In this document: positions 22,970 to 58,224 of the stretch, one piece after another
Layout: every line of letters starts with the position of its first letter
Position numbering within the stretch: the stretch's first letter is position 1
Assembly: GCA_021904315.1 (NCBI GenBank)
Contig: CM038920.1
Location: 2,852,001 to 2,916,000 of the forward strand
Length of the DNA: 64,000 nucleotides
Source: Sphagnum magellanicum
Taxonomy: Eukaryota; Streptophyta; Sphagnopsida; Sphagnales; Sphagnaceae
Direction: 5' to 3'
Position numbers and translations under genes: made by a program
Notes under the pieces: generated by a model
Databases searched by the model: none
What the model was told of the DNA's origin: nothing
Seen by the model: only the letters and a program-made list of their open reading frames with translations

Positions 22970-24830
22970 TTCTTTTTGCGTCACTTTTGTCACCAAGTCA
23001 TGGCAAAAATTTGTGAAAAAACCGAATGCTGACATTGTTAGCTGAACAATTCAATGCTGTGTGACGATTTCTATTTTGCAGTTATAGGATGGTGTACTGT
23101 AATGCTAGAAGCTCAATTTGGTTTACCTTTGGCAAAGCAAAGGGGTGAGGTTAATCTTTGAATGTTTTGTAGGCATAGAATGTCAGGAGTGATTGCAACT
23201 AGCAGATGTCTAGACCTGTCTGCAAGAAATAACTATACCTAAACCCAATTGAGTGTGTGACTTTTTTTATCAGTATTACAAGATAGCAACTACATCGAGG
23301 CATTTGTGGGTCAACTGCAACCACATAGCTTCACTTGAGAAATTTGGTACTTATGGACCCTTTGACAACTATGTTAGTGTGTGGGTGCATTGAAGTAGCA
23401 AATTCCAGCATGTTTTGGCCCACTGAAACCCTTCAGTTTCCTTTTGTTGGCTTTGACCTTATACATGAGCCCCATTGCCTCTGTCCGATTTGCAGCCTCA
23501 ATATTGATGAATGTGGTAAGATTAGTGCCATGATCTAGAGAAGTTGTCTGATGATACAACTATGTGATTGATATGGTGCTATAGAAAAGGAACAGATACA
23601 AGCTCTTTCAAGGTACAAATATTGACCTGTTTGTAGCACTGCAGTTCACATTGCCATCACCTCATATCAGCAGCAAAGAACCCAGTCAATCTTTTAGGAC
23701 TAGTTCCAGGTGTTCCACCAAATCAGTAATCTCAAATCGTCAACTTTGGCCAGAGGCCTAAGGATTTGGCACTCATCTGATGGTGTACACTGTATATACC
23801 TGATGGATACAGGAATTATACCGTTAGTGAGGGACACAACAACGTTACAAAGACAATGACTCTGTTTAAATGATTCAAAGAATAGTAGTACCAAATCACA
23901 ACCATTGATGTAAACTGTCTCTATCTTCCAGATTTTGAGCTTCTATTAGTTTGTGCTGTGAAGATTCTTCTTTTTTTTGTTGGCTTCGTAGAGCTTTGTG
24001 TTTTACTCTTCCAAAAAACTATTGTCTTGGGATTTCTTACTTACATTCAATAACTGAATCAGACTCTACTCTCAATTCATAGGAACATATCTCCTAGATT
24101 TCGTTATTCTTTGCCCTTTTCCAAAAGAGCTACAAGCTTAGATCACACATTGTGTACAACAATTGTGATTCTGTGACAGGAACCCAATGTGAGGAGGGGG
24201 AAGCAACCCCTTTTGCTAATCAAAAATCAAATAGTGTGACCCAAGCAGGAATTTCCAATGGAGAATAGCATCCCAATCCACAAAAATACCCATGTGACAC
24301 CAAACCTCAATCAGTAACTCCTCAATCTGAGACTGTTTGCTAGAGCCCCTTGGCTTAGCATCTCTACTAATAACAGACCAAATAGCTAAACCTAATTTCA
24401 GCAATAGAAATCCAAGCCCATTTGCAAATCTCCCTACTTAAGTAGGGACTGCTTAAAACAAGCAATCATCTCATAATATTCCTCCACCATCTAATAATAA
24501 TCATCCACCTGGTGATGATATATTAATCTCATTTTTGAACATGTTATTAGTGGAGAAATAATACCCAACCATTGTCCCCTCACTCACAAATCCCAATAGA
24601 ATTGTCTTCATGAAAAAATAAATTAATAGCAAAAAGTTCTCCAAGAACTAGAGCATGAAAAGTGATTAAGAAACCCAAAAGATTAATTGAAATTATTGAA
24701 AGCAAGTCTACCCCAAAAAAGTCTCAAAGAAAACATTGAAAGCCTTGGCAACTAAACATAACCCCACATTCCAAAAACATATGAAGAAAGATTTCATTGC
24801 CATTAGTCTCACAATTGGAAAGTTGCCATC
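22970..24830. other. Intergenic stretch; possible distant LINE remnant on minus strand near the end
   Basis: No gene is recognised. On the minus strand, 24160-24830 reads in broken frames with words resembling a zinc-binding reverse transcriptase tail (FWNVGLCLVAKAFNVF), which is weak. An 62-codon open frame at 24216-24404 (minus) has no identifiable domain. Confidence 0.25.
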
Positions 24831-24839
24831 AACTTTAAG

Positions 24840-25560
24840 TTCTAATCTTTAGAGAAAAATAATACTTGGACTTATATGACTTTGCCAAAAGATCAAAAAC
24901 CAATCATTTCAAAATGGAGTTTCACAAATCAAATGGCAATATAGATAAATACAAAGCTAGATTGGTTGTCAAGGGATACACACAAGTCTTAGGACTTGAT
25001 TTCATAAATATGTTCCCTCTAACTTTAAAATTTAAGTTTCTCATAATTTTAATATCTTTAGCTTCTCAATTTTATTTGGAAATTTCAACATTTAAACATT
25101 AAAATTTCCTTCTAAAATGGTATTTTAGATTAAGACATTTAAATGTATGATAATTCCTAAAGAATGTCCAACATCATCCCTAACAAACATAGTTTATAGG
25201 TCACATAATCCTTGTATGGGTCAAAACAATCACCATTAATTTGGTACCAATGACTTGTTACCCACTTTGTTCACAAGGTTTTAGTCAAATAGAATCCAAT
25301 GTCCACATTTATGTCAAAAAATATATATTGAAAGAGGCTTCATTGTTTTGGGAATTTATAATTTGAACAATGGCATTATTCTTAGCAATAATATGAAGTT
25401 GACATGTATGAATTAAAAGAAAATTTGAAAAAAGAATTTGAAATTATGAGTGAAGGTGATATCCACAACATACTTGGTATTGAAATCATCTAGAACCATG
25501 TGGAGGCCTTTATATTCATCTACTAAGAAATAAATCTATCTCTATGGTTGAACACTTTAT
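24840..25560 (+). mobile_element. Copia-type reverse transcriptase fossil
   Basis: The plus strand shows the Copia RT start KARLVVKGYTQ followed by GLDF and a downstream KKEFEIMSEGDIHNILGIEI block, in the usual pol order. It is a heavily decayed internal fragment of an old Ty1/Copia element with many breaks. No LTRs can be assigned to it. The level of decay suggests it is older than the Copia relics at 38-40 and 54-60 kb. Confidence 0.7.
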
Positions 25561-26725
25561 AGTGAATAATTATAGACATATCATGGTGTAATCACAAAAA
25601 TAGGAATCAAAGTAAAGTGTAACCAATGCTTAATTTTTCATGTTTTAGTATCAAAATTTGTAATAATCTTACAAGTCATTCAAAAACATTTATGACAATG
25701 TTTATAATATATTATGAAAACATGTGGTATGATTTGGAATGGGCAAATGATGTCAACATTAAATGATCTACAATTGATCTTATTAATTTCTACTTGTAGA
25801 ATCAAAAAAATAATCACATGGGCAACTAAAACACATATTTAATTAATTCTAGATTTTACAAAAGTCCAAAAGTACCAACACATCATTTACACCATGCAAA
25901 CAATGTGACTTTCAACTACAAATATGACCTAGTGGCCACCAAGTTGTTCACCATAGCAAAAGATTTTAGGAAAATAGCAAAAAACATATAGGTCGAACAT
26001 CCAAATTACACCTTATGGCCACAAGATTTTTGACCACAACCAAAAATGGAATCATTAACATAATAAAATTAACACAAATCAACAAATTTTATTGAAAATT
26101 TAAAATACAATTTGAAGTTTGGGTCAAGCTAATGCCTAGCTTGTTGAAAATTCTTAATGCAAACGAAATTGAAAAAATGAGAAAATTCCAAAAAACATAT
26201 TAATGGAATAAATAAAACGTATTTGTGACATACAAATTGAACCTAACTTTCAACTATAATCTTATCATAAATGAAAGACTACTTTAAATAACCCTAAAAC
26301 AATGCAAATCTTAATAGTAAGGTCAATTCCTCCTATTTTTTGAACTTTTGTGATGGTCCATGGTCAAATATGCAATTATATTTGCATTATCTCGAAATAA
26401 GAATCCTAATGGCAAACATTACTTTCTCCATTTTAGATTTACAAACGTTGTCGCATAGTCTACGAATAACAAGCATAACTAGCTGCAAACAAAATTTAGT
26501 GCCAACAAAAGAAAACATATAACATAATTTTTTCAACATATAATATAAGAAATGACCTATAAAATCAAAAATGAAGATAAATGAAATGATTCCGAGTGTG
26601 TACCCAAAGAGGGTTGGGCATTGATAGGATCACCATTGTCATAATTCATATATTGCATGAATGAAAAATAATTTTGCAAAGAAGAATTTAAACAAGGTTT
26701 AAAATACTTGGCCAAAACATCATAA
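25561..26725. other. AT-rich stretch, nothing recognised
   Basis: Contains one near-palindromic CCTAGTGGCCACCAAG (25928-25943), a motif that recurs in the minisatellite at 27.6 kb and in the DUF7869 composite. No coding region is supported. Confidence 0.4.
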
Positions 26726-26730
26726 TGATC

Positions 26731-27300
26731 TCAAATTGTGTTTATCAAAAGCAATTTAATTAAAGCTATCCATAAATGAGATGCCAAATCCAACAATTGC
26801 ACTTTATTCATTAATAACAACTCACCCCTAAAGGACTCCAGAAAAAAACCACTCCACTTCAGATTTTCAACTATTTTACTAGGTTCATCGTCAATTAACA
26901 ATGTTTGATTTTCCTTCCCATAAAGTAACCCACGGCAACCATGGTACACACGCTTCAAATCCTTCAAATAATAATGAAACCTAGGAGAAATTTGACCAGA
27001 AGTCTTTGACCATTGGTCGTGTCCCAAAATAAAGACAAATTAATCCACAAATGTATCTTAAATCAGCATTGGAAGAACCTCAAGCACATCCTTTAGTTTC
27101 ATACAAGACCAAATTGTGATGTAAAAGTTTTCAAGTGTGTGAGAAAGGAAATGTTTCATTCCAATTCTCACTTTGACTTTGCTCTTATCAATAATTCTTA
27201 CAAACATTCAAGCATTCCCTTGCAGAACAACGAATTGAGGGAAATAGCAAGTACACCGTTCACGTTTAAAATTAATAATTTTTTGGGACCTAAAGGTCCT
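26731..27300 (-). pseudogene. FCP1/NIF-like (HAD) phosphatase pseudogene fragment
   Basis: The minus strand encodes pieces of an FCP1-homology domain, the HAD fold that dephosphorylates phospho-Ser/Thr targets such as the RNA polymerase II tail. Near 27290-27240 is the motif I region, reading LNVNGVL where plant members have LDLNGLL. The first catalytic Asp position is therefore Asn. Next comes a stretch like VLQGNA. A 98-codon open frame (27027-26731) carries GHDQ, YYLKDLKRVY, the motif III/IV region LLIDDEPSK and NKVQLLDLASHLW. The two parts lie in different frames with stops between them, so it cannot make an enzyme. The order and spacing fit the C-terminal half of the plant FCP1-like family. 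Whether it is a processed host pseudogene or was captured by a transposon cannot be told; no intron is visible. Confidence 0.55.
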
Positions 27301-27622
27301 GAATGTACATGTGAACGCAAATATATACCTTCGTTCACTTAAGTTTGATGCAAACAAATCTTGAACTACAAAAAAACCAAAGCATGCCCCATTTAAACAG
27401 ACACAACACAAAATATTAAGGTGATATGCACACCTTCAAAATTCAAGTCATGATCAAATAATGATGTCCAATCAAAAATACTATTGTTGTGTTATACAAC
27501 ACATTGACGTACCCTAAACGAAAAATTATATTTCAAGAAAGCATCACATGTGGGCATTAGGTGACATTACAACATATTAAATAAAACAACAACAAAAAGT
27601 TGGAACTAAACACACGCAACCA

Positions 27623-27825
27623 AACCCTGTGGGCACCAAGTTAGTTTTGACAAGACCCTAGCGGCCACTAGGCTAGATTTAACAAAACCTTGGCAACCAC
27701 TAGACTAGATTCAACAAGACTTTGGTGGCCACTAAGCCAATTCCAACAAGACCTTAGTGACCACTAGGCCTATTCAACAAGACATTAACAACCACCAAGC
27801 AAGTTCCAACATGACCTTGATGACA
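27623..27825. repeat. Minisatellite, 32-bp unit, about 6 copies
   Basis: Anchor positions at about 27629, 27661, 27693, 27725, 27757 and 27788 give a period of 31-32 bp. Each unit holds a variant of the near-palindrome GTGGCCACTAGG followed by a TTCAACAAGACC-like spacer. Copies are diverged by roughly a fifth. Confidence 0.85.
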
Positions 27826-27829
27826 CTGA

Positions 27830-27935
27830 AAGCCTAAAACATCTAAATTATATGAAAATAGTTCCAAAACCCTAAACCATAAAACCTAAACCTCAAACCT
27901 TAAACTTTAAGATATAAACCCTAAACCTAGGATTA
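27830..27935. repeat. Short degenerate telomere-like tract
   Basis: CCCTAAACC-type heptamers with substitutions (CCCTAAACCATAAAACCTAA and on). It is related to the longer tract at 30.09 kb. Confidence 0.6.
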
Positions 27936-28289
27936 TATGTTCACCATATTTTTGTTCATTTTGTAAGCCTTCTTATTATTTCTCTTCTTCAAATACTTTT
28001 GGTGTTGCTTGAAGATCCTTTCTTGGGATTTGGCTCAATTCTTGTCAATGTCCAATTGGACTGTGTTGATTTGGTCAATGGCATCCATGACAATTGACAA
28101 TTTTAAGTTGTGAAATGTCACAAGATTTTGTAGAATGCAGATATTTTATGTCATTGGTAATATTTGGATATAATTCAATGAATTACATTTATTTGTTGAA
28201 TATATAGAATATTGATAAACATATAATAAATCAATGACTTCATTATGGACCAAATGAGATTTTGATGTGAAATAACATATGTCTCTAAC

Positions 28290-29190
28290 TATCACGATCT
28301 TAACCTTAGGTTCGTGACCAAGGCAAGGGCATGGAAAAGCCTAGGCCGGGAATGCAACTTGGGAATCACATTCATAGTCCCAAGAATGCGAAAGAACGTG
28401 AAGGAATGAACCCACACACTCCCAAGTGGACTCCCACTTTGGGAGTTAAAGTCCTTATGGAATCCCAAATTTTTAAAGAGCAATTTGAGGGGTCGAAATT
28501 CATAGGATTAATAATTTCCTTGTACCATTGGAAAGCTCTTAAAACGTAAATGTCTAAAATGGGCTCGCATGATCCATTTGAATATTTTGAAAAAAGGGTC
28601 AATAATCAAAGTGTCAATTTGATTTTAGACCACTAAAAGTCGAGAACTACCCTGAATTATGTGTGTGCAAGTGATGTGCCACATATTGTTGAAAAGCTCC
28701 CGATAATGGCTACAACTTTGCTTTAGACCTTGCCTTAATCAAAGGTCTACACAAGAACTTATGGGTTTCCAAAGTGGCAAGAGTCCCAATTTTGAGAATT
28801 TTGGGATTCTTGACTTGGGAGTCTTGAGAAAAAAGACATTTGGGTGTAAGCCCCGTGGCCAATCACAAAGAATACTATAAAGGGGAAGGTGGTGGCTTCT
28901 TGCAAGTTCGAATCATGGTGAATCTTGTGAGTCTGTGTATGATTATGGTTCGTGCATGCATCAAAAATGTTTCAATTATGCATTAACCAACTTGTTGTTT
29001 GGATTGTGTAGATTGATGCAAATAATTAACCCACTTGTCATTCATCCTAGTGCCCATCCCGAAATTCCAACACCCCCCTCTTACCCCTGAAGTGCTACGA
29101 ATGAAGGAGCATATCCCAATTTTTTTTTCTTCCACTATTTTCATTTTGGGACTTGCATTTGAATCATCTAAGGAGTTTGGGAGTGTGTCA
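28290..29190 (-). mobile_element. Solo LTR of family L1, copy 1 (old, deaminated)
   Basis: On the minus strand it starts TGACACACTCCC, runs 901 bp and ends at the position equivalent to the TG..CA end of copies 2 and 3. It is flanked by CTAAC (28285-28289) and TTAAC (29191-29195), a five-base target duplication with one difference. It aligns along its length with 31421-32355 and 43526-44416 but has far fewer CpGs. No internal retrotransposon sequence adjoins it, so it is a solo LTR fossil. Confidence 0.8.
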
Positions 29191-29195
29191 TTAAC

Positions 29196-30086
29196 CACCA
29201 TCTAAAAAATAAACCCATCAAAAATGAATGATTTTTTTCATTGCTGTGACTCGTTGGATGAAACTCAATAAAAATCGCACACTATTATAATAACAGGTTT
29301 TATGGTTTTAAAAACCCCCAAAGTGATAGCGTAAAAAAAACCCTTTGGTTTTCTAAGACAAGTTAATTTTAACAAGTCTAGTATAACTGGGATGGTTTCT
29401 TTTACTTTTTTTTTACTAGTGGTCAAACAATACACAATGTATGGTCATCTTAATGCCCCATTTGTCTTTTTATTTATGCTTTGGTAATCAAATGGGTGTT
29501 TTGATTATTTGATTATCAATCAACTTGATAGTTTGAAAATATCCATGTTTCATTCGCCATGTGTCACCAAATGTTAAGTTCATTGAATGCCATGTGTAAT
29601 TATTAGAATGGATGGAAATTTGTCAATTTGTCGGTTGGTTGATTCAATTGGCAATCAACTAGATAGTCAAATGATACCACTATAAGGACTAAATAATGGT
29701 AGACACATGTCATTGGCTTGTTGAATAGGCTGCTAATACATGGTATTGTAGCATGCCATAAAATGCTAACACATGTCAAATTTAAACTATTTGTTAAGTT
29801 ATCCTTTAGTTTAATTTGCTTTCACAACATCCAGTTATTTGATTAATTGATTTGACAAAATTGGGTCAAAATGGTGAGTGCATGTAAACTAAGGTGGACC
29901 ACTTTTGGTGTTACAATGGAATTTTTTAATATTGCATGATTGCAATTAGTACATGTTATTGTATGTGTTAAGAATTTTCAATAGATATTCACAAATTATA
30001 TACTTGAATATATACATATGCAATTAATTGTAAATGCCAGGTGGTAATTGATCTTTATTTTATACAATAAATTTGAAGGGTTATTG
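29196..30086. other. AT-rich stretch, nothing recognised
   Basis: No coding region, RNA gene or repeat boundary was found between the solo LTR and the telomere-like tract. Confidence 0.4.
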
Positions 30087-30671
30087 TATAAACCTTAAAG
30101 CCCAAACCCAAAGCCCAAACAATAAATTCAAACCCTAAACCCTAAACCTTTAAGCCCTAAACCTTAAACCTTAAGTCATAAGTCATAAACCTTAAACCCT
30201 CAAGCCAAAAATTTAAAGCCCAAACCTTAGACCTTAAATCCCAAACCCTAAACCTTAAAGCCCAAACCTTAAACCCTAAAATTTAAATCCCAAACTATAA
30301 ACCCTAAAGCCTAAACCATAAACTGTGAACCGTAAAACCCAAAAATTTAACCCTTAAACCATAAACCCCAAAATCTAAACCGTAAATCATAAACCTTAAA
30401 GCTAAAAATCTAAACCCAAAATCTAAACCCTATAGCCCAAACCCTAAATGTAAACCTTAAAGCCCAAACTTTAAACCCCAAAACTTAAACCCCAAACTCA
30501 AAACCCTAAAGCCCAAACCATAAACCCTAAACCCTAAACCCTAAATGTAAACCTTAAAGCCCAAACCTTAAAGCCCAAAATCTAAACCCCAAACCTTTTA
30601 CCTTAAACCTTAAACCCTGAACCCAAAACATAACCCTAATCCCTAAACCCTAAACCCCAAACCCCAAAGCC
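30087..30671. repeat. Interstitial telomere-like repeat tract, ~585 bp
   Basis: Dozens of heptamer-like units AAACCCT, AAACCTT and AAAGCCC are written head to tail on this strand, with intact CCCTAAACCCTAAACCCTAA near 30523-30545. It is the C-rich strand of the plant TTTAGGG telomere repeat, heavily diverged. Longer-range variants such as AAAGCCCAAACCTTA recur every 21-35 bp, so the tract may have grown as a satellite rather than been laid down at once. Confidence 0.85.
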
Positions 30672-31420
30672 TATATAAATAATAATCTATTATGAAATAT
30701 TCATTAATCATTCATGAATTTAAAGGTATGTTTTTCAAACTAATTTGGTATAATTCTATACGATCATTATTCATAAATAATAATAGATAACTAGAATGTC
30801 AATTATTTTATAAATAATAATTAACCAATAATAAATCTATTATTGGTTATTTGAGGCAATTAGTATACTAACACAAATGCCTACCCATTTTTTCCTTAAA
30901 AAATAATTCAGAAAAATGATATTTGAAATTCAAAAGTTGAACATCAAGTAATTTTGCAACTTTGCATGGTCAAAAACATATAACCCAATGTTTTCTTTTG
31001 TTGGATTTCACTAAACCCAAATATAATGAAGGATGGTACAAATTCTTCAAGTCAACCATAGTTGTTAATTATATGCTACAAATTTTAGTTATCACGAAAA
31101 AATTTTAAATCAATACATTAAATATGCAATATTAACTATTATTTCCAACTATTAGGATTTTGGGTTTCTTCATACATGGTGTAGATCTTTGTTTCGAATG
31201 TACACATCCATCATTACATTCAAAATGGAGGCCCCACTCTTCACACTAAAAGATACGAAAGAGGCGGAAGTTTTAACCATAGAACATTCTTGAATGTTTT
31301 TTTTGCAATGACGATGTTCTTCAAGAGAAAGGAGCAGGATTAGGTTGAATTTGTGACTTTTCTTTCAAGCTGGATGAACCTTGTGTAGCAATTTCCAAAG
31401 TAGGAAGGTGACGAGCATAA
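30672..31420. other. AT-rich stretch, nothing recognised
   Basis: No gene or clear element boundary. It leads directly into the second solo LTR. Confidence 0.4.
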
Positions 31421-32355
31421 TGACGCACTCCCAACTCCTCAAAGGGCTCAAATGTGAGCCCAAGTAGGAAAACAGCGGAAGGAGGAGTCGGAGCACGCTC
31501 CCTAGCTCACAACACTTTGAGGGGTAGAGGGGCATGTTGGAGCTCCAGGATGGGACTAGGAAGAGTTGACAAGCTTCACTCACTCACACGGGCCTGCACA
31601 CAACCCACACAAAGTGGTTAGTGCAAAGTTGGAGCACCCTTGGTGCTAAGACGAACCACGAGCAACACGGACACACAAGACTCACCATGGCCCGGACTTG
31701 GGGGAAGCCACCACCTTCCCCCTTATAGTATACTCTGCAGCTCTCCATGGAGGCTACATCCAAATGGTTATTTTTCCCGGGACTCCCGAGTGGGAGTCCC
31801 GAAATCGCGCCAAATGGGACTCCCGCGATTTTGGAGCCCCATAACTTTGCGAGCAGACCTCGGATCGCAATGCGGTCTAAAGCAAAGTTGTAGCTCTCGT
31901 CAAGAGCTTTCCAACGATATGTGGCACGCCCCCTGCAGCTAAGTAAATCGGGTCGATTCCTGACTTTTTGTGGTCGGGAGTCAAACTGGCATTTCGACTC
32001 CTGGCCCTTCTTTTGGCCATAACTTATGTTTCAGATGTCTAAATGAGCAATGCGAGCCCATTTTAAACATCTAAGCTCTAAGAGCTTTCCAATGATATAA
32101 GGGACGCCACAAGACATTGAGGTTTGACCCTTGTAATTGCTCTCTGAAGTTTCGGGACTCCATCTCCTAAAGTGGGAGTTGCCTTGGGAACGTGAGGGTG
32201 CACTCCCTCATACTCCCTCACACTTTCTAACACTCTCGAGAGTATGTGATGTGACTCCCGGGCTTCTTTTTGCCTTAACTCCTGGACTTCCTCTTGGCTC
32301 GCAACCTTGCAACCCCTTTTGCCTTGGTCGCGAGCCGAAAGCTCGGGTTGCGACA
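31421..32355 (+). mobile_element. Solo LTR of family L1, copy 2 (CpG-rich, least decayed)
   Basis: It runs 935 bp from TGACGCACTCCC to GGGTTGCGACA, giving TG..CA ends. It shares with copy 3 the successive blocks GGGATGGGACTAGGAAGAG, GGCCCGGACTTGGGGGAAGC, CCCCATAACTTTG and GGTCGGGAGTCAAA. It keeps many CpGs lost in copies 1 and 3. The bases outside the ends (CATAA and CTAGA) do not form a convincing target duplication, so the flanks may have recombined. Confidence 0.75.
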
Positions 32356-32890
32356 CTAGAATTCCACAATAAAATACCTAGTATTCTTTCATCTTAGTAT
32401 TATTTGCTAGGTCAAAAGCATAAATATTTTGTTATGTTCTATTGAGGTTGTGTTTAAAGATAGTAAGATATTTTTTTTATCATTAAACAGGCCAAAATTC
32501 CTTTTCAAAACCTACTTGATTCCTTTCCCTGCATGTTTTGCATTATTTTCATTTAATTAATACATCTTAGTATATGTAATGGTCACTCTAACATCAATTG
32601 CATTGCCAAGAGGTTAGGAATATCTAGTACATAATAAACATGCACAATTTATTTCTAGTGGTGGACTTAATCTATTCATTAATGAAATAATCAATGTTCT
32701 ATATATTATGGTTTAAAACTGAAAAGAATGCAAACTGCCTAAATAAACAAGAAATAGAATTTCGCTAGAAACCCACCATTTTTTGCCATTGATTAATTTG
32801 GTGGGAAAATATATTACGCCATTCATTTTGGCAGGGAAAACCTACTAATGTTTCTATTAGAAAGAAATAATGAGAGAAACGATTAATAGT
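32356..32890. other. AT-rich stretch, nothing recognised
   Basis: No coding sequence or element boundary seen between the solo LTR and the 49-bp minisatellite. Confidence 0.4.
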
Positions 32891-32894
32891 CGTT

Positions 32895-33800
32895 AAACAT
32901 TTCTTCCTAAAAATGTTTTTCGAAGAAATGCTTGGTGGTTGCTAGGTGTTTTTGTAGAAATATATTGGGTGTAGAATGTTTAATGGTTGCAAGGCATTTC
33001 TATGCACGGATATTGGGCACAAAAATGCTTGGCGGATGTTAGGCGTCTTTGTGTAGGGAGATTTGGTGCAAAAATGCCAGGCGTTTCTACACAGTGATAT
33101 TGGGCACAAAAACACCTAGTAATTGCCAGGTGTTTCTGTGGAGTAATATTGTGTGTAAAAACGTCTAGCAATTGCAAAGCATTTTTGCGAAGGGATATTT
33201 GACATAAAAATGCTTGGGCACCACCAAATGTTTCTATGTAAGGATATTTTGTGCAAAAAAACCTTATGACTGCTAGGTGTCTCTACACAATTATTTTAGG
33301 TGCAAAAACACCTTTTGGTCACTAGGTGTTTCTACATAGGGATTTTAGGTGTAAAAACATTTGGCAACTACCAAGCATTTTTTTGCAAGGCGCAAAGATG
33401 CATTGTGGCCGCTAAGCATTTCTGAACAAGGAATTTAAGTGCAGAAATGCATGGTAGCTACTAGGGATTTCTATGCAAGGATTTGAACTGTAGACAAATT
33501 TTTATGTAGGGATATTAAGTGCAAAAAAACTTGGTAGCCACCAAACGTTTCTACGTAGGGAATTTAGGTGCAGAAATGTTTGGCAGATGTCAGGCTTGTT
33601 TAGGCACATATATTAGGTGGGGAAATGCCTGGGGATGCTAGGTGTTTCTACGCAGGGAAATTGAAAGTAGAAATGCTAGGCAGCCACTTGGAGATCCTAT
33701 TCATGGATCATTGATAAACAAACTCCCCACAATCACCTAACATTTTAAAGAGTGGATATTGGGTGTAGAAATGCTTGGCAGCTATTAGGTGCTTGATTTT
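32895..33800. repeat. Minisatellite, ~49-bp unit, about 17 diverged copies
   Basis: The phrase TATTGGGCACAAAAATGC with variants recurs at about 32963, 33011, 33060, 33098, 33148, 33196 and 33245 and onward. The period is 48-50 bp, with one short unit. Each unit also has a TGCTAGGCGTTTCTACGCAG-like half. It abuts the DUF7869 relic and may be its terminal or subterminal region. Confidence 0.85.
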
Positions 33801-33849
33801 ATAGATGGTAAAAGAAGAAGCTCTTAGAATTTGGGTAATTCCTCACTAA

Positions 33850-36800
33850 GTTGAAGATTTGCATAGTGAGGAATTACATGGTGAAATGAGTTATATTTTT
33901 GAGGATGGTGTGGAAGGGTCTATTTGGAAGTTTGGGTATGATTCCATGAACGAGAAGGAAGTGAAAAGAATATTGTGGAAGGTAATCATGAGGTTAGTGG
34001 TGAAGAAAATTTTGAACAAAATAAAGAGGATTATAACCAAGGGAATGCATGTGGGAATGATGATGCAATGTATGGCCATGGTGTGGGGGACAAATTCAAA
34101 TATAGCGGGAAGATGTTGATCTGAGTGGCAAAGAATTGAATATGATCTTGTAGACAATGGTGGGGTTTTCATTGCAAAAGGTTGGGTGGTTACATGTGAC
34201 CCATAGGAAGCAATTCTTGACGATTAACTTAGGGAGGACCATGTTGGGCTTTACATCTTGTATTGTTTTATGACTATGTCAGTAGTGATGACCATTTGGA
34301 AATGACCATTAGCTTAAACAATTCTTAAAGGGTACCCTTTAAAAAGCATTTCATAGCATTTTATGAAACCCACATATTAGATGTTGATGGTGAGATCAAT
34401 TGGTGTAAAGAAAAAGAAATATTCCTTTTGTAAGAGGAAGTAAAACATCATTGACTCTAAGGGTTCCATTTCTAGAATTAAGAAAGTGTTGTTAAAGGAG
34501 TCAGTGCGTAATGTGGGTGCAACAAAGTGTTACGCCATGAATTGTTGTTAACATTTTCTTCATGAAAAAATGTTGTTGAGACAAGAGTTTTCGAGTTTGT
34601 CATTTGAAGACCGCAAGACATATGGTTAGATATTCTAAGAAGGTTACATATGAAGGGAGACAAAAGCCAACAAAAATTTATCATTATTCAAGGTTTTAAA
34701 CATTTGTGAAAGTTTGGTACGAAATCATTGGTCTTTCTAGGTCAACATATATGTTATACAAATTACATAGCAAGTGAAGTTGTTAGTTTTTACCACATGG
34801 GAACAAAGGTACAATTAAATTACGTATGTCAACTTGGTAAGTCAAATGTTCAGTCATTGATTGACCTGTCTACGGATATTATGTCACATCAAATGAAAAG
34901 GATTGGAAATGGTAGACAAGATGTGCAACAAGTTTTGCTTAAAACATGGAAGATTCTATAGGAATGCAATGATCAAATTAATTATATGGAACAACCAACA
35001 TTTTTTGTTTCTATCTGGTGACAAACACCTTGCGGTTGTTAAATGTTTATCATGAAAAACTATTTTATGAGAAATTGAAATGGATTTTTGAATGTTTATT
35101 TGGCAACATACATCTATCATGCAGAATATAATATTTTTTTTGTTTTTTGTATTTGTGGGTTGGTAAATAAACAAGGAATTAAACATTGGAGGTATTTCTC
35201 AATTTGTTATGAGTAGGTTGAAAAAAAGACACCATTTGAATGTTGATGTGTGTGAAATCGAGGGTTTGTGTTTGTGAAATGCATTGTTTGTGAATCCTTA
35301 AATGACTTGATATCCAAATTGGGAAAGAATAGTAATGAAGTTCTAAAATATGAGGCGAAGCTAAAAAAAATATCTTGCAGCAAGAATCATGTAGAAACTT
35401 ATACCATACTTGGAGGATAGACTTAATGTGATTGAAAATGAGTTCCTATGCATTATTCATGACAAGATGGACCGTGCAAAAACTGTGCTTTTAAGGTTGT
35501 GTGTAACAAAATGATATTGGGGCTTGGACAATTGCTCATTACCCTTACGAATATGATAATGCATGGTCATGGGGATAATAGATATGCATAATATTATAAT
35601 GAGTTGTGGCCAAACAATCCCAATTTCACAATTGGGCCCTTGTTATGGTTCTTGCGAACTTTAGAGGTGGCCCTAATTTCGAAATCAAAATTATTATTTG
35701 AACAACCCCTACAAAACTCATTATTTACACGTATGTCGTAAAGGAAATCAAGTTGCATATGCAAATTACACACCCTAGATCAAATTGTTGTTCTAAATTA
35801 ACCTTCAATGCCAAGAAATTTGTTGCTTCAAATGGATAATTGTGTTAAAGACAATAAAAATTGGCATTTGTTAATGTTTCTATCATTGTTGACAACGAGG
35901 GATGTGTTTGAGGAGGTCAAATTGGGATTTTTTGTAGTTGGCCATATGCATGAGGATATAGATGGTTACATTGGCTATTTGTCAAAAAAGTTGGAGGAAA
36001 ACAATTACATTTTAATATATTTGATGAAAGCTTTCATGATCTCACAAGAGAAACCATCCATTTTTTAATTGATTTAGGAGATTCCAAATTTTAAATATTG
36101 GGTCCTAGGTTGTTTGAAAGATGGCCTTGAAAAATTGGTAAGGCATACTGATATGCATCTGTTTAAATTTTTTGTTGATTCATCAAATTAACTAGTGATG
36201 CAATACAAAGTTTCTCCCACAAATCCTATTTGGAGTCCAATAGATGGGTCTCCAATTAAATTATGGAAAGCTAATCCAAATGGTTCACTAAAGTTGCTTA
36301 CTAAAGTTCCAAGCCCTGTTCCATATTGCCCAATTTGGGGCAATGATGCATTGAGGTTAATGGACAAAGAAAAGTTTATAAATTCTGGACTATCCAAATA
36401 CATGGATTTCTGGAAGGTGGGCATTGCGCAAAATTCCATTTATGAAATGAAGATGAAGTTGTATGTGGAGTACTAAGATGATATTTTGTTGCATTTGTGA
36501 AGACCATTACCGCCTCAATGTATAACTCTTTTGGAAGGCTTTTGGCCTTCAAGTAATTGGAGGTCTAACTATGCTAGGGCTTCATTGTCAACCTTGATGG
36601 ACATTGTTGATCCAAAAGATCCAATTCGAGTTCCTTATTGTGAGCCAAAGAACATGAGACCTTTAACTACATACATGCCATTAAGAGATCTTAATGTTGG
36701 AGATTTTGTCCTCGTGAGACTACATGATTTAAATCTTGTTCCTTTCTAGATGGGAAAAATGGAGGATGCTGTTATCAAGGATGAAGAAAATGAATATTTT

Positions 36801-37016
36801 AAAATGGTGAGAGTTCAATGGAAGGTTCCTATAAAAAAAAGATCAAATTTAGATGAACGACATCTATATGAAGATTACTGGAATGGGAAGTGGAAATGTA
36901 ATTTAGCAAATTCAGAACAATGGTTTAACATTTCAACTATTTTTATTTTTTTTCTTGCTTGGAAAAATACAACAAATAGAAGTCAAATTAATATTCTTGC
37001 TACAACCAATTTGTGA
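33850..37016 (+). mobile_element. DUF7869-type transposase relic, composite copy A
   Basis: Ordered blocks on the plus strand resemble plant proteins with a DUF7869 domain, thought to be RNase-H-fold transposase derivatives. These are an NCC..F....R.EF block near 34540, LLQMDNC and GHMHEDIDG near 35820-35965, MQYKVSPTNPIWSP and PYCPIWGND near 36196-36350, and a C-terminal LHDLNLVPF..MGKMEDAV segment with DERHLYEDYWNGKW near 36730-36900. The relic is broken many times. The same blocks occur in reverse at 61.45-64.0 kb with about nine in ten bases matching in the parts I compared. The family name is from memory of motif patterns. Confidence 0.65.
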
Positions 37017-38230
37017 AGGATGTTGGTGACATTGATTAAATTACATTTACAATTTTTTGATGTCTTTTGTATCATTGTATTGATTGGATTGTCATTTTAA
37101 ATCTTTTTTGCAACTTTTGTGTTGTATGGTTTAATAGATTTTTTTTTTCCCAAAATTTATCCATGTACATGATTCTTGAAAAGTAATAATAAATAATCTA
37201 TTTTGTTCCATCTGATCCCTAGTGGCCACCAAGTGTCAACTTTCCTACATGGTATGTAAAGCCCCAAAAATAATGGATTTGTTATAACATGAATAATAAA
37301 ATTACATGCATAAACATTATTGTTATTATTATGTTGTGCCTTGTTTGTATTTCAGAAAATTGAATTTTTATTTCTATTTATTGGGATCATTTACTTGTGA
37401 CTTTCTTATTTGATAATCTATTATGTATTATCACTTGTTAGGCATTGGGATAAATTATATATGGAATTTGAAACATAGTAGATTTGTTATTGTATGATTA
37501 ACATGGATGGATAAAGTTGTTATTGTTAGAAATTTAGCATGTTGTCAATATATTAGATTCAAAACATTGAGTTCATTTTTCTCACTTTAAATGGGAGTTG
37601 TGTCATTTGGTTTTTATAGCTTATAATTTTTTATGTTTCACCTAGTGGCCACTAGGCATTCAATTATAAGTTAAAAAGTTTTATGGTGTATATATATTTG
37701 AAAAATATTAACAAAATTTGTGTGATAGTATGATGTTGTAGTTTTGCCAATTTGGCCTCTTTCCTTGTTTCAAATTCAAAGGGTTGAGTCTCTTAATGTT
37801 AGATAGAAGCACTAACATTTGACTTTCAATCACTCATGAAAATTCATAGTCTTGTTTTAGATTTGATATGAATGTTTTTAACATAATGTGTACATGGATC
37901 TTTTTGGAATTGTTGGTTAGAAAGTTGTTTTTATTTGGAAATAATGTAATCGAAATTTTTTATAATATGACATTCACGTCAAAAATGATCATTAATTTGT
38001 TAAGTCTAGTGACCGTTAGATGGAGTTCATTCCATCCACCAAGTTGTATAAAGTCCTAAATTAAAATTTTAGTTTTAAAATAATTAAATATGTGTTTAAA
38101 AAACAAAAATCAATTGCATTTTTTTCTATTGAAAATGAGGTTGATGATAAGGTTGTCATAACATTTGAGTGTCCATCATGGTGTGATGTGTTTGTTTGGA
38201 TGTAGACATAGCCTAGTGTCACATCAAGAC
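37017..38230 (+). mobile_element. Non-coding spacer of composite copy A
   Basis: AT-rich sequence between the DUF7869 relic and the Copia relic. It is collinear with 60240-61449 on the other strand, so it belongs to the duplicated unit. It contains the perfect palindrome CCTAGTGGCCACTAGG at 37641-37656 and a variant at 37217-37233. Confidence 0.7.
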
Positions 38231-38460
38231 AAGGTCAACATAGGTCAAAGCCCATATTGGGCTACTCGAGCCAAGGTTGTCAAAATTGATGCCATAGTTG
38301 ATGGCACTCTTCAATGATATCAAGGCATGTTTGGTGGTAAAGGGCTATTATCAAAAGCCTAGAATTGATTTTGCAGAGACATTTACTTAATAGTTTTGAA
38401 TTTATTCATGCATTCTTGGCCATAATTGTTGCAAAGAATATGGACTTGATTCAAAACTAC
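38231..38460 (+). mobile_element. Copia reverse transcriptase fossil, composite copy A, 5' part
   Basis: It matches the minus-strand copy at 59.86-60.24 kb, where KGYYQKPRIDFAETFTP is readable, a typical start of the Copia RT. It is cut at 38460 by the solo-LTR-like insertion and resumes at 39524. The element is broken at several points. Confidence 0.75.
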
Positions 38461-39523
38461 TGTCACCAAAAAGAAAGGGGAAATATTTTCTTCATTGTAT
38501 AAACCCCAATGCTGAACATACAGAAATTGATGTGTATTGCTGAAGTTATACTGAAACAAAAAGATTTGCTTCAAGTATTACTTCTTCATTAAAACTCTTA
38601 CAAACACCTAAATTCTGTTGTTTTATTTTTATGGACCACAAAGGATCAGTTTCATTCTTGATTTCCTCTCTAAGAGTCAACAGGTTGTTTCATAGGTGGT
38701 AGCTCATACCCAACAAAAGAAACCCCATAGAGACCAACTCAACAACTTCACATGATTTTTCTTAAAGATTGGATAGAGATTTAGGGCATGATTAATGAAT
38801 GTAATATATTATATTCTTTAGTATCCCTTTCCCAAAAGCCCCAGAGCTCCCACAATGCAACAAATATTGTATCCTCAAGATGGAACACATTGCGCACTCA
38901 TCATTTCAAGATCCCCAAAGTCATCACACATGAGCTGCCACACAACCATTCCAGAAATCCTTGACACATTCATCATCTCCCTTGTGTTGGTCCCTACAGA
39001 AAATATGCAAGACCTCTAAACCTTTTCTTAACATTTTTGGTGCAGCGGAAGTTCAATCGTCAGGGTTCTTCCAATCCAGCAATCCTAATCAAGTTATATT
39101 CCTAAAATCCAAATCCTCCACACACTTCTAGTACTCCAAAAATTCTAACCACTTAACTTTTTTTTTCATCACCAAAAAGCCTCCCTTACATCTTTTAGCC
39201 GACATCAAATATACTCCTCCCATCCTCATCCCTTCGTTCCCCAGAAATCATCCTACCAATCTCCTTACAGAACTGTGATTCATAAAGTTCACAAAGAGTT
39301 TTCATTGAGCAATTAGGATTGCGTTCCATCATAAAAACCAACTCACCAAGCTCCTTTCACCATAACCTGCAAAGCAACAAAACATACCAAATATATAAAC
39401 AAGTCAGAAACAAATTCTTTGGCGCCATTGAATCACCGCACCACTAGTAGTTGAGCCACTGAGCTGCATTAAGGTTTGCAGCCTTCATCCACAGAAAACA
39501 TCTAACATTGTTTTTAGGTTACA
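38461..39523. mobile_element. Solo-LTR-like insertion inside composite copy A (1,063 bp)
   Basis: The insert starts TGTCACC and ends GGTTACA, a TG..CA frame with near-matching inverted ends. The uninterrupted sequence is present in copy B near 59980-59995, where TCAAAACTAC runs directly into CTTTTGACATGG. The flanks are CTAC (38457-38460) and TTAC (39524-39527), a four-base duplication with one difference, or three bases if read strictly. No coding region is seen, which fits a solo LTR of a second family, unrelated to L1. Confidence 0.75.
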
Positions 39524-39957
39524 TTACCTTTTGACATGGTTTTCTATCTAAAAAGATTTGTATGGAGTAGCCACAAGGATTCCAAGTTCCTAAATTTATG
39601 CAAAAAGTCTATAAATTACTCAAAAGTTTATATGGCTTGCGGCAAGCTTCTCAAGCATGGACTGCTCTCTTTCACAAGTTTTTAAAATCTCATAACCTTG
39701 AGGTTTTTGAAGCAAATCCTTACTTGTATTGTGATCATTCTTCTCCCAAATTGATGATTCTTATTTTTGTTGATGATGTTTTTGGGGGTCACATAAATCC
39801 TTCCAAATTCATGAACATAATTTCAGATCTTCAAAAGTAGTTTGACATCACATTTGGTGACGTAAGGTGTTATATTGGCTTATGGATTATTCAAGATTGA
39901 ATCAACCATACTTTAGTCCAATCACAAGATTTTTATTACTTATGTATGTACTCAAGA
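39524..39957 (+). mobile_element. Copia reverse transcriptase fossil, composite copy A, 3' part
   Basis: The plus strand reads the RT core KLLKSLYGLRQASQAW and then LMILIFVDDVFGG, the Copia form of the catalytic DD box. Homology with copy B stops near 39957. The copy is an internal fragment with several breaks and no recognisable LTR of its own. Confidence 0.85.
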
Positions 39958-41845
39958 GCCCACTAATTGGCACTGATCTAAATGAAAAACCTCAAACTTT
40001 TTGTAAATCTCGATGCAAAAAACAAGTTTTATTTACACTAAGCATGCAACTCTCTTATCTTTCCATAGCACACGGAAGAAGAAATAATAAGAGAACAAAG
40101 AAAAAAAGCAATGAATTCATGTAAAAGGTTGATAAAATTAGAAAATAGAAAATAATCTCTAAATTTTTTACATGTGGCACACCTATGTAAATGAAAAGAA
40201 TAAACTTCTTTGGACTTCCACAACCACTTTGCAAACTAAACCGCAATAAAAAAGAAAACACTCACACTTCCCCCCCCCCCCTTCCAAAAGCAAAAAATCC
40301 TTAGCCTTTGGGGTGCGTGTTACATCTCCTCATTGGCCATCATTTTTTCCTAAAACTAATACCAAAGACACTGGAGTAGAATTGCCCATCACTGAAGATG
40401 TACCTATAATTGAATATTTTCCTATCTTTTCTTCATTCCTTAATCAAATTGAGTGATTTTTGTGTCATTGGATCATGAACTTGAAGGCTACATATGTTCT
40501 TCAAGCATTAGAAGTGAAGGAACAATTCAAAAAATTATAGGTAGAGGATGAGTGATAAACCAAACACCCATATCTTCCCCATTTCTTTACCAAATTGAGC
40601 AATTTTTGCACCATTGGAAGCACTAGGTGGAGGGCTACAATTGTTCTTTTAGCTTTAGAAGGAGAAGAATAATGTGTGAGGATCCAACCTCCTCTGAGTT
40701 CTTATAGGTTAGCTCATTGGCCGATCTACCCTAATTGGGGTACATAGTTTATTCCAATAAAGAGGCAAGAGGAAAGCATGCAAGCAAAGCGATACACAAT
40801 CTTTAGAAGGATTGATTACAATCCACATCTCATTTTGTTCTTTTTACCTTATGTTAAAAGGTGAAGGAAGGTCAATAGTTAGCATAACTGTTTGGGTTCA
40901 AATTGAAGAACAAGAGATCCTTTTCTAAAGAAAAACAATTCCCTACTATAAGCAAATGGTCAATCCCTAACATTTCAAAGGTACTTGAGTAGAATTGGAA
41001 CACATATGCATAAAATCTTTCTTTTCACGGTCACTAAAATCAGTATGCTCCCATTTGAAGTAATGTAGAAATAATAGGTCTCCCTTGAGACCTAGTCTAA
41101 TTGCAATTGTGGGATGTTGCTAAATAAGGTATGGATTTTTGAAGATGCAGCATGTAACTTATTTAATTCACCTTTGTTCCCAAGGCAAAAAACAGGTGAT
41201 CCAAATTTATATTTCAAATCATGTGTAGATGTATAAACTAGTGTTGTGCAGTTCTTCCTTTTTGAAAAAACCTCCTATTCGGTTCTAACATTTTAAAATT
41301 TATGTGACAATTCTTTGAGTATTTCCAAACCTGGCTTTTGAACCGAGTTCAGTTCCATGTACACACTACACATTCCCCAATGTTAAAGATTTTGTGAGTA
41401 CAAAGTTTTATGACAAATTAAATAGGGGTCTATTTAAATATAGAGTTGAACAACTAATTAAAATTAATAATTAAGTATAAAGTTCAATCTATTTATTAAC
41501 TTTTGAAAAAAAGTCTATTTTTTAACATATATATCCTTACCCTATTTTCAAAACTAATTTTTCATTGTTCTGATACTGAATCTAGGAAAAGATTTTTTCC
41601 ACAATCTGATTCTTGTGTCGGTTCTAACAAGTTAATGTCAACTTAGGTCTAGGCTATAAAAACTTGGCCAAAGTGAACCAGCAACCACCAATGCACTAGT
41701 TGGCCAATCTGTCCACTAAATGGGTTACGTTATTTCATTTGATGTCAGATGGGGATCATCACAGTCCATTTCTTTTCACTGTTAACCATTATATTCTTTT
41801 TTTTGGTTTTTTCTTGGTTGTTTTTTCTCTGGACTTGACCTCACA
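39958..41845. other. Intergenic stretch, no gene seen
   Basis: A run of 12 C lies at 40270-40281. Around 40520-40700 a phrase with ATTGAGTGATTTTTG..CATTGGA recurs in diverged form. No coding region is recognised. Confidence 0.4.
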
Positions 41846-50305: not shown

Positions 50306-51280
50306 AGTGACTAATGCATGTGTACATAGCAACAACCAGAAGTTGGCAATGTAATAATTAAGACTCCACTTGAAAATGGACATATGTTCTGTACTTGTCA
50401 AGTTAGAAACACATTTTGCCTTCATTGAAGTGCAATTATAGCATGGAGTTTACTATAGGCAATGTAGAAGAAAATGGATATGATGGTAATGTTCAGTATT
50501 TATCGTGGACCATTTTTGTATATTGAAACCATACAATGTACATACCCTTTTAATGGGTTACATACATGATGACATCACTTGAATAGGATTGCAGTGGAAA
50601 TGGATTATGGAATAGGCTCATTGTTCCTTGTAGTGCTGCCACACAGATTAGGGGTATTGTTGTACACTTTCCCAATACAATTCTAAAAGTATTCCCAACT
50701 GCTAACCTTACCCCAACGTTTTACACATCCTTGATTCATGGTGATCCAGAAGAACACGTTTCATGTCCATATTGTTGAACACACCCCACTCACCCTCCAT
50801 GCTCCCCACATTTCACATATGGAGAGACAAAAGTTTTGGAAAGTTTGAGTTTTTTCACATAGATCAGTGCCCATTAGTGGGCTATGTGAACAATTTCTAG
50901 GTTAGGAGTCTGTCAGAGTGTGAACAGTAAATTTTTTTGTTTTGGGTGATGAGCCAATCAGAGAGGTCTATCCCAAAAGGAAAAAAATTGTCAAGGTTGT
51001 CCCCCCAAACCAATTAACACAAATCACACTATCTTTTGTTGATAGGTGAACTAAAGTTGGGTTGGACTTGGAACAGTGCACTGAGGATGTTTGGGTATGG
51101 CCTAGCCAATATTTTAGTTGTGTTTCCCTTTCATTGAAATTTGAAAGAAACTTCAACTTGAATGAGATAATGTAATTTTCAACCTAGTCCCTCCCTCCAG
51201 GTTCATCTTTCTACAACCACATAAAAAACACATTTTGGCATCTCTGGTTTTCCATCCAGGTCATTGTCATAATGTATCTC
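50306..51280. other. Intergenic stretch, no gene seen
   Basis: No coding region or repeat boundary was recognised. Confidence 0.4.
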
Positions 51281-51284
51281 TAAG

Positions 51285-51880
51285 GGACAGATGCACCCCA
51301 ATCAATGAAAGCGCCTGCAAGAAAACTGCGTTGTATCAAAATCAGGTTAATTTCTGTTGGATGAGGAGACTGTTCCAGTGCTGTACAGGAAAGCAGCTAC
51401 AAAATGTCTAAATAAATTCATTTCTAATTCTTCTCCATTGAGAAATAAAGAGAAAAAAGTCGCATGTACAGTACTCTGGACTCTACCAGGAATCAAACAC
51501 TTTCCGACAATTGGGAAACACGCTAGCTCGCTGGTTGCTGGGAAGGTCCATCGGCCATCCTCCCAGCTCTTACACCATGCCGAGTATGTATTGAGTCGCT
51601 CTTGAATATCCTTACCGATGAAATCAAATGAGAAACCAAGAGAGCATCCTCGCAAGTTCTTGGACGCGGATACTGGGGTCCAGAAGCAGTGTTGTGCTCA
51701 GTGCATGCAATTATTACAAAGCTTGCTACAAGTGGGGGGAAGATGCTAGCTCGTCCGATGCTGCTGGGAAGGTGTCCATCGTTTATCCCTTCCAGGGTAT
51801 TCAGTCTGTCTTTACCCTTATCACTACTAATTACAGATGGGAGATATCCCACGGCATTGACTATCTCCGTTCTTGCACTT
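51285..51880. repeat. Left member of a diverged direct duplication
   Basis: It starts near CCAATCAATGAAAGCGCCTG and CAAGAAAACTGCG. Further on it has TTTCCGACAATTGGGAAA, CTGGTTGCTGGGAAGGTCC and AAGAGAGCATCCT. The same blocks in the same order lie at 52705-53680. An internal echo of the GCTAGCTCG..CTGGGAAGGT block occurs near 51748-51778. Frames of 80-109 codons on both strands match no family. Confidence 0.65.
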
Positions 51881-51889
51881 GTGTAGTAT

Positions 51890-52700
51890 GATATAGCAAT
51901 ACATCTGGTTCAAATTGTCAACAAGTTTGGTGGTACGTAAGGCCCAAGAACAAGGGTGTTACCAAAATAAGGGTACCATCCGGGCCCACACCCGAGGTGG
52001 TGCCTGCATTCTGGTTATGTTGTATTTGAAGGCCTTACCGATTGTAAAGCATCTGCCTCCCCATTGTTTTGTACAGACAAACGTTTCAAAACAAAATGTT
52101 CCTCCTAAAAACATGTCATTTTGACCTCATTCACACTCATGTTGCAAAATTGCAATCCTTCATCACCCTACATAAAAAGGGTTATTATCTCTTGTCCAGT
52201 AGTGAATTGAGTTGACCTGGTCTACCCATGATCTGAAATCAGAACAGGAAACTAGGATCTACCCAGTAATTTTTTGCCTGCAAGCTACCTCTCCAAATCC
52301 ATAGCTGCCTTGCAAGGATCTCACAGTTGCAATAGACCAGGTTGCAGAGAGACTGGTCATTTCTTCATGACTCCCAGTAGGAGTATGTTGATTTTGGCCA
52401 ATCTGAAATGCTAGTTCTTAATGCAGATGTGCAGGGGTCTTATGGTTCTACGTGGGTTTCTTGAAATGCTAGGGTTTGATCAAATTTTCCTGACAGAAGA
52501 GACGTCTTTTTTTCTCTTAATAAAATTATTGCAAGATTGCTCTTCAAATGAACCCAAAACCAATGTGTTATGCTTCCTCCAGGCCATTTACCAGAATAAC
52601 AAGGTAAAAAATTTCTAATTGTATAAAACTGGTAGATATCATCATCATCATCAGAATTTATCATAGGTGTGTGTCTCTTTGGCTCTAAGAAACCGTCCAT
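51890..52700. other. Intergenic stretch between the duplicated blocks
   Basis: No gene is recognised. Short ORFs overlap on opposite strands. Confidence 0.4.
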
Positions 52701-52704
52701 CATG

Positions 52705-53680
52705 CAACCCAATCAATGGAAAGTGCCTGCCAGAAAACTGCATTAAGTCTTAACTTCTACCATACCTCAAACTAATTTTTAGCACTTCTTTGCTGGATAT
52801 ATATATATTTTTTGAAAATGACTTGGTTAAGCAGTTTCAAATATTATTTTTAAAGAATTTCAACAGTTGAGGAACGAGTATGCAAAGTACACCTTTACTT
52901 GTGTATTTTGAATAGTAACCCAATGGTTGGGACAATAATGTTTCTTTCACAAGTTGGGAATTTGATCCCCAACAATTAATTTTGGCAAATATTAATAATT
53001 TTCTCCCCTTTTCCAACTATACCTTTTGCAAATTATTTTGTGTCAAAAATCAATAATTTTCTCCCCTTTTCCAACTATACCTTTTGCAAATTATTTTGTG
53101 TCAAAAATCAATAATTTTCTCCCCTTTTCCAACTATACCTTTTGCAAATTATTTTGTGTCAAAAATCAATAATTTTCTCCCCTTTTCCAACTATACCTTT
53201 TGCAAATTATTTTTGTGTCAAAAATTAGTTGTAGGTAAGGTATCAAGTCAATCAAGCTCTTGGATTAGGACTTAGAATTCAAGTCCTTGACATCTAAGCA
53301 TCTACAAATGTCTTAGAATTCATTTAAAATTCTTTGCCATTGAAAAATAAACGGAGAATCAAGGCTACAACTTCCTGGAAATGGGACACTGGGGTCTAGC
53401 CTGATCCCAGGGGCCAAATGTTGTATGTACAGTCATAGTCCAGATGTACTACAAGGAATCAAAAGCTTTACAAATTACAGCAACTGGGAAAGTTACTAGC
53501 TCTAGGAATCTGAAAGCTTTCTGACAAGTGAGAAAGATGTTAGCTCCCTGGTTGCAGGGAAGGTCCATAGACGTTCCTCCAAGTTCCTATAGTTTGTAAG
53601 GTGCATAAAATGTACCATGTTGGTCTTTAGCATCTTTAGTCATGGGCTCAGGTGAGAAATGAAGAGAGCATCCTATTGGA
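52705..53680. repeat. Right member of the diverged direct duplication
   Basis: CCAATCAATGGAAAGTGCCT, CAGAAAACTGCAT, TTTCTGACAAGTGAGAAA, CTGGTTGCAGGGAAGGTCC and AAGAGAGCATCCT repeat the order of the left member. It is lengthened by the 58-bp tandem array inserted or grown inside it. Confidence 0.65.
52985..53228. repeat. Tandem repeat, 58-bp unit, 4 near-identical copies
   Basis: AATAATTTTCTCCCC begins at 52994, 53052, 53110 and 53168, giving an exact 58-bp period. Copies two to four are nearly identical, with a one-T expansion at the end of the last. This array is much younger than the sequence around it. Confidence 0.97.
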
Positions 53681-53689
53681 ATTATGCAA

Positions 53690-54190
53690 TCCTCAAACAA
53701 ATAAGTAACAACCATTATGTTTTCAGTATTTTGAACATTTTTAGAAGCTTTGCAACATTTATAAATTAGCAAACATATGGTCTCATAGTAGCATTACCCA
53801 AGATATTCATTGCAGAGAATGCAAATATACAATAAGAACAACAACATTGTAAACCAGTGCTGAAAATATGTTCATGTGTGAATGTTATAAGTGAGAAATC
53901 TAAAATTCAAAACTATGAAACGTTAATATCATTGTGTAGATTATACTCAATAGAATTACTAGAAAACTTAACATGCAAATTACCATGAATAAAGTTACTT
54001 CACATGTTCAATGTAACTAACCTAGACCTTCAATATTCCGGTACTCCGATTCATTGAACATCAATGTAAAATACTCAATACACAAATAATAACTCCCATT
54101 TATTGAGGACTTGGAACTAGACCAAGAAGATTGTGAAAACGTTGGAACTTTTCTGCTAGAAGGGGTGTTGTCATAATATCAACATATTGA
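53690..54190. other. Flank of the composite copy B, nothing firmly assigned
   Basis: It may hold the remainder of the Copia element beyond its RNase H region, but I could not identify an LTR or polypurine tract with confidence. Confidence 0.3.
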
Positions 54191-57389: not shown

Positions 57390-58224
57390 AATCTAAATAT
57401 CCTTACTTCATATGTTATAAACTAAAATTGAATTTACATAGAAATTATAAATTATGCATGTATTGAACATACACAATATTAAGTTGACTTAGATTTCAGA
57501 ATTTCTTTAAAATTTATTTTCAAATTAAGGTGTGATATTTGTATGCACAAAAAAATTCATCATACATGTAATCATTCATGGATATAAGAAAAAATTATGT
57601 GTACCTTTAGTAATTAATGAATCTTTATTGCAATTTTGTAAATATTTTAAAACATCATACATATAAAAATGAAGAAACATTAAAGTTCCAAAACATAATG
57701 AATTATGTATCATTACTTGATTTGTTGTGAATTAACATTTGATTTACAAAGAAATAATAAATTACATATATTGAACTTACATTATTACAAACTCATATTT
57801 CAAAATTTCCTTAAATTTTATTTTGAAATTAAAATTTAATATTTATATGCACAAAAGAAAATTCATCATACATAAGCATTCATTTCCACAAATAGAATTT
57901 ACATGTAGTTTAATGTTTAATGAATTTTTATTGCAATTTTAAAAATATATTGAGATATCATGTTTATAAAAATTAATAAACATTAAAGTTCCATTAAAAT
58001 ATTAATTATCTATCATTATTTGATATGTTGTAAACTAAAATCCAATTTACATATAAATAATAATTAGGTGTATTGAACATGCACATTATTAAAAATTTAT
58101 ATCTCAAAATTTTATTAAATTTCCTTCAATCAAATTTTATTATTTGTGTGCACAAAAAAAATTGCATCATACATAACCATTCATTTTATACAAAGATAAT
58201 TTACACATAATTTAATCTATTAAT
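57390..58224. repeat. ~300-bp tandem units inside the CACTA element
   Basis: Three diverged units share AATGAATCTTTATTGCAATTTT, ATAAAAATGAA, GAACAT..CATTATTA, and GCACAAAA..TTCATCATACAT in the same order. A fourth partial unit follows the 435-bp repeats at about 59100-59400. Confidence 0.75.

Follow-up and report, generated by a model that had tools for sequence, protein, structure and literature searches.

We analysed a window of 64,000 nucleotides of the Sphagnum magellanicum genome (contig 14, 2852001-2916000) in which a relic of a DUF7869 gene is followed by a relic of a Copia reverse transcriptase (RT), and in which the same pair, here called copy A, recurs farther along in inverted orientation as copy B. 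The question that this locus raises is how the two came to share a junction twice. A sequence-only reading had offered three options: a retroelement that carried a DNA-transposon gene, a nested insertion spread by segmental duplication, or an unrecognised composite element. Based on searches of the genome (439 Mb, 31 contigs), the second of these is supported, and we consider it very likely that a DNA transposon was nested in old Copia-bearing DNA and that the pair was then spread by segmental duplication, not as a mobile composite. Coordinates of the features are collected in Table 1.

To judge from their alignment, copies A and B are the arms of one old inverted segmental duplication. Self-comparison shows that arm B repeats the gene order of arm A, inverted, at about 87% identity. 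With 14 kb of DNA past the window end included in the mapping, the arms span A 23926-40000 and 50840-73188, so the homology extends well past 33850-39957, the piece in which the shared junction had been described. The same order of DUF7869 and Copia RT in A and inverted B stands (Pfam, self-comparison), but a spacer of about 1.2 kb in both copies does not, as the repeat at A 38461-39523 is missing from B. Homology between the arms continues outside both ends of the transposon described below, on the left over 23926-25829 and on the right to 40000, matched in B. The proposal that the joined unit is older than the split of the two copies holds. DNA in common thus lies outside both ends of the nested pair, and on the right it reaches 49284 in a copy on contig 9. 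In the flanking DNA, A and B agree at 1789 of 1903 aligned bases on the left (94.0%) and at 326 of 360 on the right; identity is 87.1% and 93.4% for two blocks of the transposon and 91.4% and 93.0% for two of Copia. Where the arms differ, later events seem to be responsible; B 50884-54190 has no counterpart in A, through either gain in B or loss in A.

Some further features lie around the arms. Two inverted sequences of about 2 kb (90-94%) border arm B, at window positions 49901-51880 and at 73186-75433 past the window end. The sequence of this pair recurs on contig 4 (about 7.24-7.28 Mb) and, many times and in both orientations, on contig 10 (2.45-3.41 Mb), and is a low-copy unit having its own inverted layout. 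Near and between the arms, at 44683-45557 and 52974-53225, there are short tandem arrays whose units measure 79, 51 and 58 bp, and Pfam showed no family in two frames of the DNA that separates the arms.

Table 1. Features of the locus, in window positions
Feature	Position	Strand	Basis or remarks
Arm A of inverted segmental duplication	23926..40000	+	paired with 73188-50840 in inverted blocks
Copia RT relic, left of transposon	24858..25496	+	RVT_2 profile 1-211, 37.8 bits, 2.1e-9; also tblastn
DUF7869-bearing DNA transposon, copy A, degenerate, ~11-12 kb	25830..38096	+	ends common to contig-1 copy; TIRs
Left TIR, 19 bp, AACACATATTTAATTAATT	25830..25848	+	exact TIR search of genome
High-copy 940-bp repeat insert, arm A	31416..32355	+	without counterpart in B
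DUF7869 relic, in-frame stops, arm A	35499..36284	+	
Right TIR	38078..38096	-	one mismatch against left TIR
Insert, arm A and contig-9 copy, 1,063 bp	38461..39523	+	TGTCACC...GGTTACA between CTAC and TTAC; absent from B
Stretch also on contig 9	38618..49284	+	~93-97%, together with 36216-36625 and 37150-38001; ends >9 kb beyond Copia relic
Copia RT relic, right of transposon, arm A	39523..39936	+	RVT_2 profile 87-220 at 39529-39924, 70.8 bits, 1.7e-19; also tblastn
Arm B, in-window part	50840..64000	-	runs on to position 73188, outside window
Copia relic, arm B, continuing past RT	54215..55169	-	tblastn
CACTA-like insert, arm B	55171..59859	-	CACTAGT...ACTAGTG, 3-bp ATG duplication
Copia RT relic, arm B, first part	59817..60138	-	tblastn
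Same transposon, arm B, in-window part	60361..64000	-	other end at 71267
DUF7869 relic, arm B	62232..62945	-	

Each arm holds one copy of the DUF7869-bearing transposon, at the same site. Its terminal inverted repeat (TIR) occurs 167 times without mismatch in the genome (72 and 95 by strand), against none for the reversed control, and the right end was placed near 38096 by comparing other copies in the genome. An exact TIR copy lies within 10 kb of a DUF7869 match in 20 of 73 cases on contigs 1-6 and 8-10, while 1000 shifted controls gave 0.5 such cases on average and never more than 5. On contig 1 there is a copy (C1:21003928 to ~21015513) whose match to A covers 25830-27824 and 33849-38097 and whose match to B is more complete; it has its transposon ends in common with A and B, while its flanks differ and give no match outside the ends. 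When left and right ends were paired, a 4-bp target duplication was exact in 6 of 10 own pairs and in 5 of 90 crossed pairs. At 2, 3, 5 and 6 bp, the equal pairs numbered 1, 0, 0 and 0 of the 10 own pairs and 9, 4, 0 and 0 of the 90 crossed ones. The four inexact own pairs may be mispaired: one agrees at three of the four bases (CTGA/CTAA), two join a single left end to two different right ends, and in the last the ends are separated by 45 kb. The duplication at the A/B insertion is imperfect (CTAA/TAAA in A, TTAA/TAAA in B), as is that of the contig-1 copy (GTGG/TTGG, tip mutated).

A first set of transposon copies gave no inverted matches above shuffled scores because the stretches compared stopped short of the left end. 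A LINE-like 5' truncation, hinted at by copies sharing only their 3' end, was rejected once the TIR pair had been found. Inside the transposon, at 30089-30673, there is a degenerate array of about 84 units of TAAACCC, similar to the plant telomere repeat, with a homologous array in arm B.

Pfam confirmed DUF7869 (PF25273) in the piece 35802-36065 (82.8 bits), on the same strand as the right Copia RT, and it is the sole Pfam family in the scanned plus-strand stretches of two transposon copies. A genome search gave 259 candidates; the best 150 were scored and all 150 match, 18 of them without an internal stop. A read-through alignment of 15 rows shows no variation at D151, N159, H187, H189 and E190, which sit in the motifs QMDNCVKDNKN and VGHTHEDIDG. 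The D, D and E/D residues are conserved, a pattern that would fit a DDE/D enzyme, and the fold models are of low confidence (mean pLDDT 54.2 and 33.8 in two predictions). A profile search of solved structures returned one match only, at chance level (E 0.86), and one search of a limited literature collection found no paper on DUF7869. It is probable that the DUF7869 protein is the catalytic protein, or transposase, of the transposon.

CACTA (EnSpm) transposons make a 3-bp target duplication and have termini that begin with CACTA. The DUF7869 transposon is like them in its large size, in a terminal CACATA loosely similar to CACTA and in repeated motifs near the ends, but its duplications are of 4 bp and its termini begin with AACACATA, not CACTA. 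Membership in this group was rejected on these termini and on the own end pairs, none of the ten being equal at 3 bp and six at 4 bp.

In its termini and target duplication the transposon resembles Sola, a group with a DDD transposase, and is a candidate member. A plant review describes Sola as having 4-bp duplications, TIRs of 11 to 1124 bp and lengths of 2-9 kb, some above 15 kb, and as present in the moss Physcomitrella (PMC10741241); Sola1 in bivalves has a mean length of 5,445 bp (PMC10294476). The 4-bp target duplications (exact in the majority of own pairs, though imperfect in A, B and the contig-1 copy), the 19-bp TIR at both ends, with one mismatch, and the size all lie inside these reported ranges. 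DUF7869 is not named Sola in the literature consulted, and the likeness is one of termini, duplication and size. We regard it as doubtful that this large TIR family with 4-bp target duplications, with DUF7869 as its transposase, forms an unnamed superfamily other than Sola, such that proteins of this kind elsewhere would mark the same family. The locus itself is a case of ordinary nesting and segmental duplication, of which the termini and target duplications of the DUF7869 transposon family are a by-product; the Pfam orphan DUF7869 is thereby tied to a transposon family with defined ends, which makes such copies easier to annotate.

In arm A the transposon has a Copia RT relic on either side, and both exceed the RVT_2 Pfam cut-off of 31.6 bits (Table 1); the Pfam scan also confirmed RVT_2 in the piece 39571-39837 (54.1 bits). 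Scanned in pieces, the counterpart of the left relic in B stays under that cut-off (22.7 and 26.2 bits), but tblastn detects it. On the right in arm B, the transposon ends at 60361 and Copia RT similarity runs from 60138 on by tblastn. The start of Copia on this side rests on that similarity in B, the Pfam scan of A 38097-38462 showing no RVT_2. A stretch of 677 bp in B (54236-54912) is absent from A; Copia similarity by tblastn spans it in B, and the absence is therefore a loss in A. Elsewhere in the genome, near-identical Copia copies with open frames of about 1362 amino acids are clustered in short stretches on many contigs, for example contig 9 at 8.67-8.79 Mb and contig 19 at 7.49-7.57 Mb, and these clusters might mark centromeres.

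The presence of Copia RT relics in the same orientation on both sides of the transposon could suggest that a Copia retroelement captured a DUF7869 gene as cargo, which was the first of the three options. We think this very improbable. The left and right relics overlap in the RVT_2 profile (1-211 and 87-220), and we therefore read them as two relics, not the two halves of one gene split around cargo. They enclose a complete transposon that has both its TIRs, its site is empty on contig 10, and the independent copies of the transposon sampled elsewhere have no Copia flanks.

The sequence-only reading had proposed a search of the genome with the junction, taking many copies as support for a mobile composite and only two as support for a segmental duplication. 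With B 59800-60800 as query, running from the right end of the transposon into Copia, the best 40 of 246 candidates were scored. Among these 40 places only A (query 3-809) and B itself run on into Copia; the other 38 end by query base 451, the transposon ending at about 440. The 500 bp past the transposon end (B 59856-60355) gave 12 candidates, all scored: B is matched whole and A in two pieces, and the rest are the contig-9 Copia piece (94%), a 110-bp match on contig 2 (89%) and otherwise short matches, including three on contig 10. We also sampled 33 flanks of transposon copies, 16 right and 17 left, in which four places are counted twice per side and from which 3 of 20 left-end loci without a recognisable TIR were excluded. 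Compared with ten Copia proteins at E values up to 1, none of the 16 right flanks showed Copia similarity, and only three of the 17 left flanks did, all of them belonging to A and B.

Parts of arm A are also found on contig 9, in a third, damaged copy (Table 1). This copy has A's solo-LTR-like insert and A's Copia loss, and it lacks 38002-38617, so the transposon-Copia junction itself is not preserved there. Site patterns group the contig-9 copy with A: 116 sites have A and contig 9 alike against B, 21 have B and contig 9 alike against A, and 22 have A and B alike against contig 9. The contig-9 copy is a later segmental copy of arm A.

If Copia and the DUF7869 transposon moved as one unit, the junction would be expected at unlinked places with unrelated flanks. 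Such a unit would be compatible with the order and orientation that A and B share and that the contig-9 copy shows partially, but the places found among the scored matches are A, B and the damaged contig-9 copy, and these have flanking DNA in common, which continues on both sides in A and B and for more than 9 kb past the unit in the contig-9 copy. The transposon is bounded by ends and target duplications of its own, with Copia left outside, and the census, partial as it is, points to linked copies sharing longer flanking DNA. The sequence-only reading had named two observations that would speak against a composite, namely that Copia and DUF7869 do not occur together elsewhere and that the two copies sit within a longer duplicated block. 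Both go against it here, Copia being absent from the other sampled flanks and A and B lying inside such a block. We consider a composite mobile element most unlikely, and it can be struck from the list of candidates; the repeated pairing is a fossil of nesting.

The insertion site can be seen in its empty state on contig 10. The left flank (23926-25767) is also present there at 87%, and at all three loci examined the two flanks lie 7-67 bp apart with the transposon absent. In A coordinates the left flank stops at 25776, 25767 and 25776 and the right one begins again at 38186, 38127 and 38127, with gaps of 67, 15 and 7 bp; the flanks score 97-272, against shuffled maxima of 25-41. These empty sites are inexact, in that no counterpart, or a diverged one, exists there for 53-62 bp to the left of the insertion point and for 30-89 bp to its right. 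The transposon entered DNA that had previously been one piece.

Since the unit is present in several copies on contig 10, several targets were available, and the transposon might have inserted twice, independently, into two pre-existing copies of the unit. There is very little likelihood of this, in our judgment. The insertions in A and B are at the same base and in the same orientation, with similarly degenerate target duplications, and the two arms share extra flank bases that are missing from the contig-10 copies. In the two transposon blocks, identity between A and B (0.871 and 0.934) is also higher than between A and the contig-1 copy (0.859 and 0.900).

A single nested insertion, duplicated afterwards, therefore remains our preferred reading, and the order of events that follows is based on the shared and unshared inserts and on the site counts. 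Copia relics would already have been present in a low-copy chromosomal unit, itself existing in several copies, when a cut-and-paste DUF7869 transposon of about 11-12 kb entered the member on chromosome 14. An inverted duplication within that chromosome would next have turned the unit and its transposon into the arms A and B. Arm A would have gained its solo-LTR-like insert and lost Copia sequence, with both arms gathering separate insertions and losses, and part of arm A would later have been copied to contig 9. As in other nested insertions copied by segmental duplication, the junction lies inside longer common flanks, related loci lack the insert and later inserts are specific to one arm; we see no notable difference from such cases, although the inverted layout and the contig-10 cluster complicate the local history.

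Among the arm-specific inserts, that at A 38461-39523 is a probable solo LTR; of 40 genome matches scored, 38 fall solely within it. The CACTA-like insert at 55171-59859 interrupts the Copia RT of B. The 940-bp insert of arm A belongs to a high-copy repeat of 800-940 bp with three copies in the window (28395-29190, 31416-32355 and 43526-44332), which are 69-77% alike; a genome search for it gave 7684 candidates, of which the best 40 were scored and are mostly that repeat.
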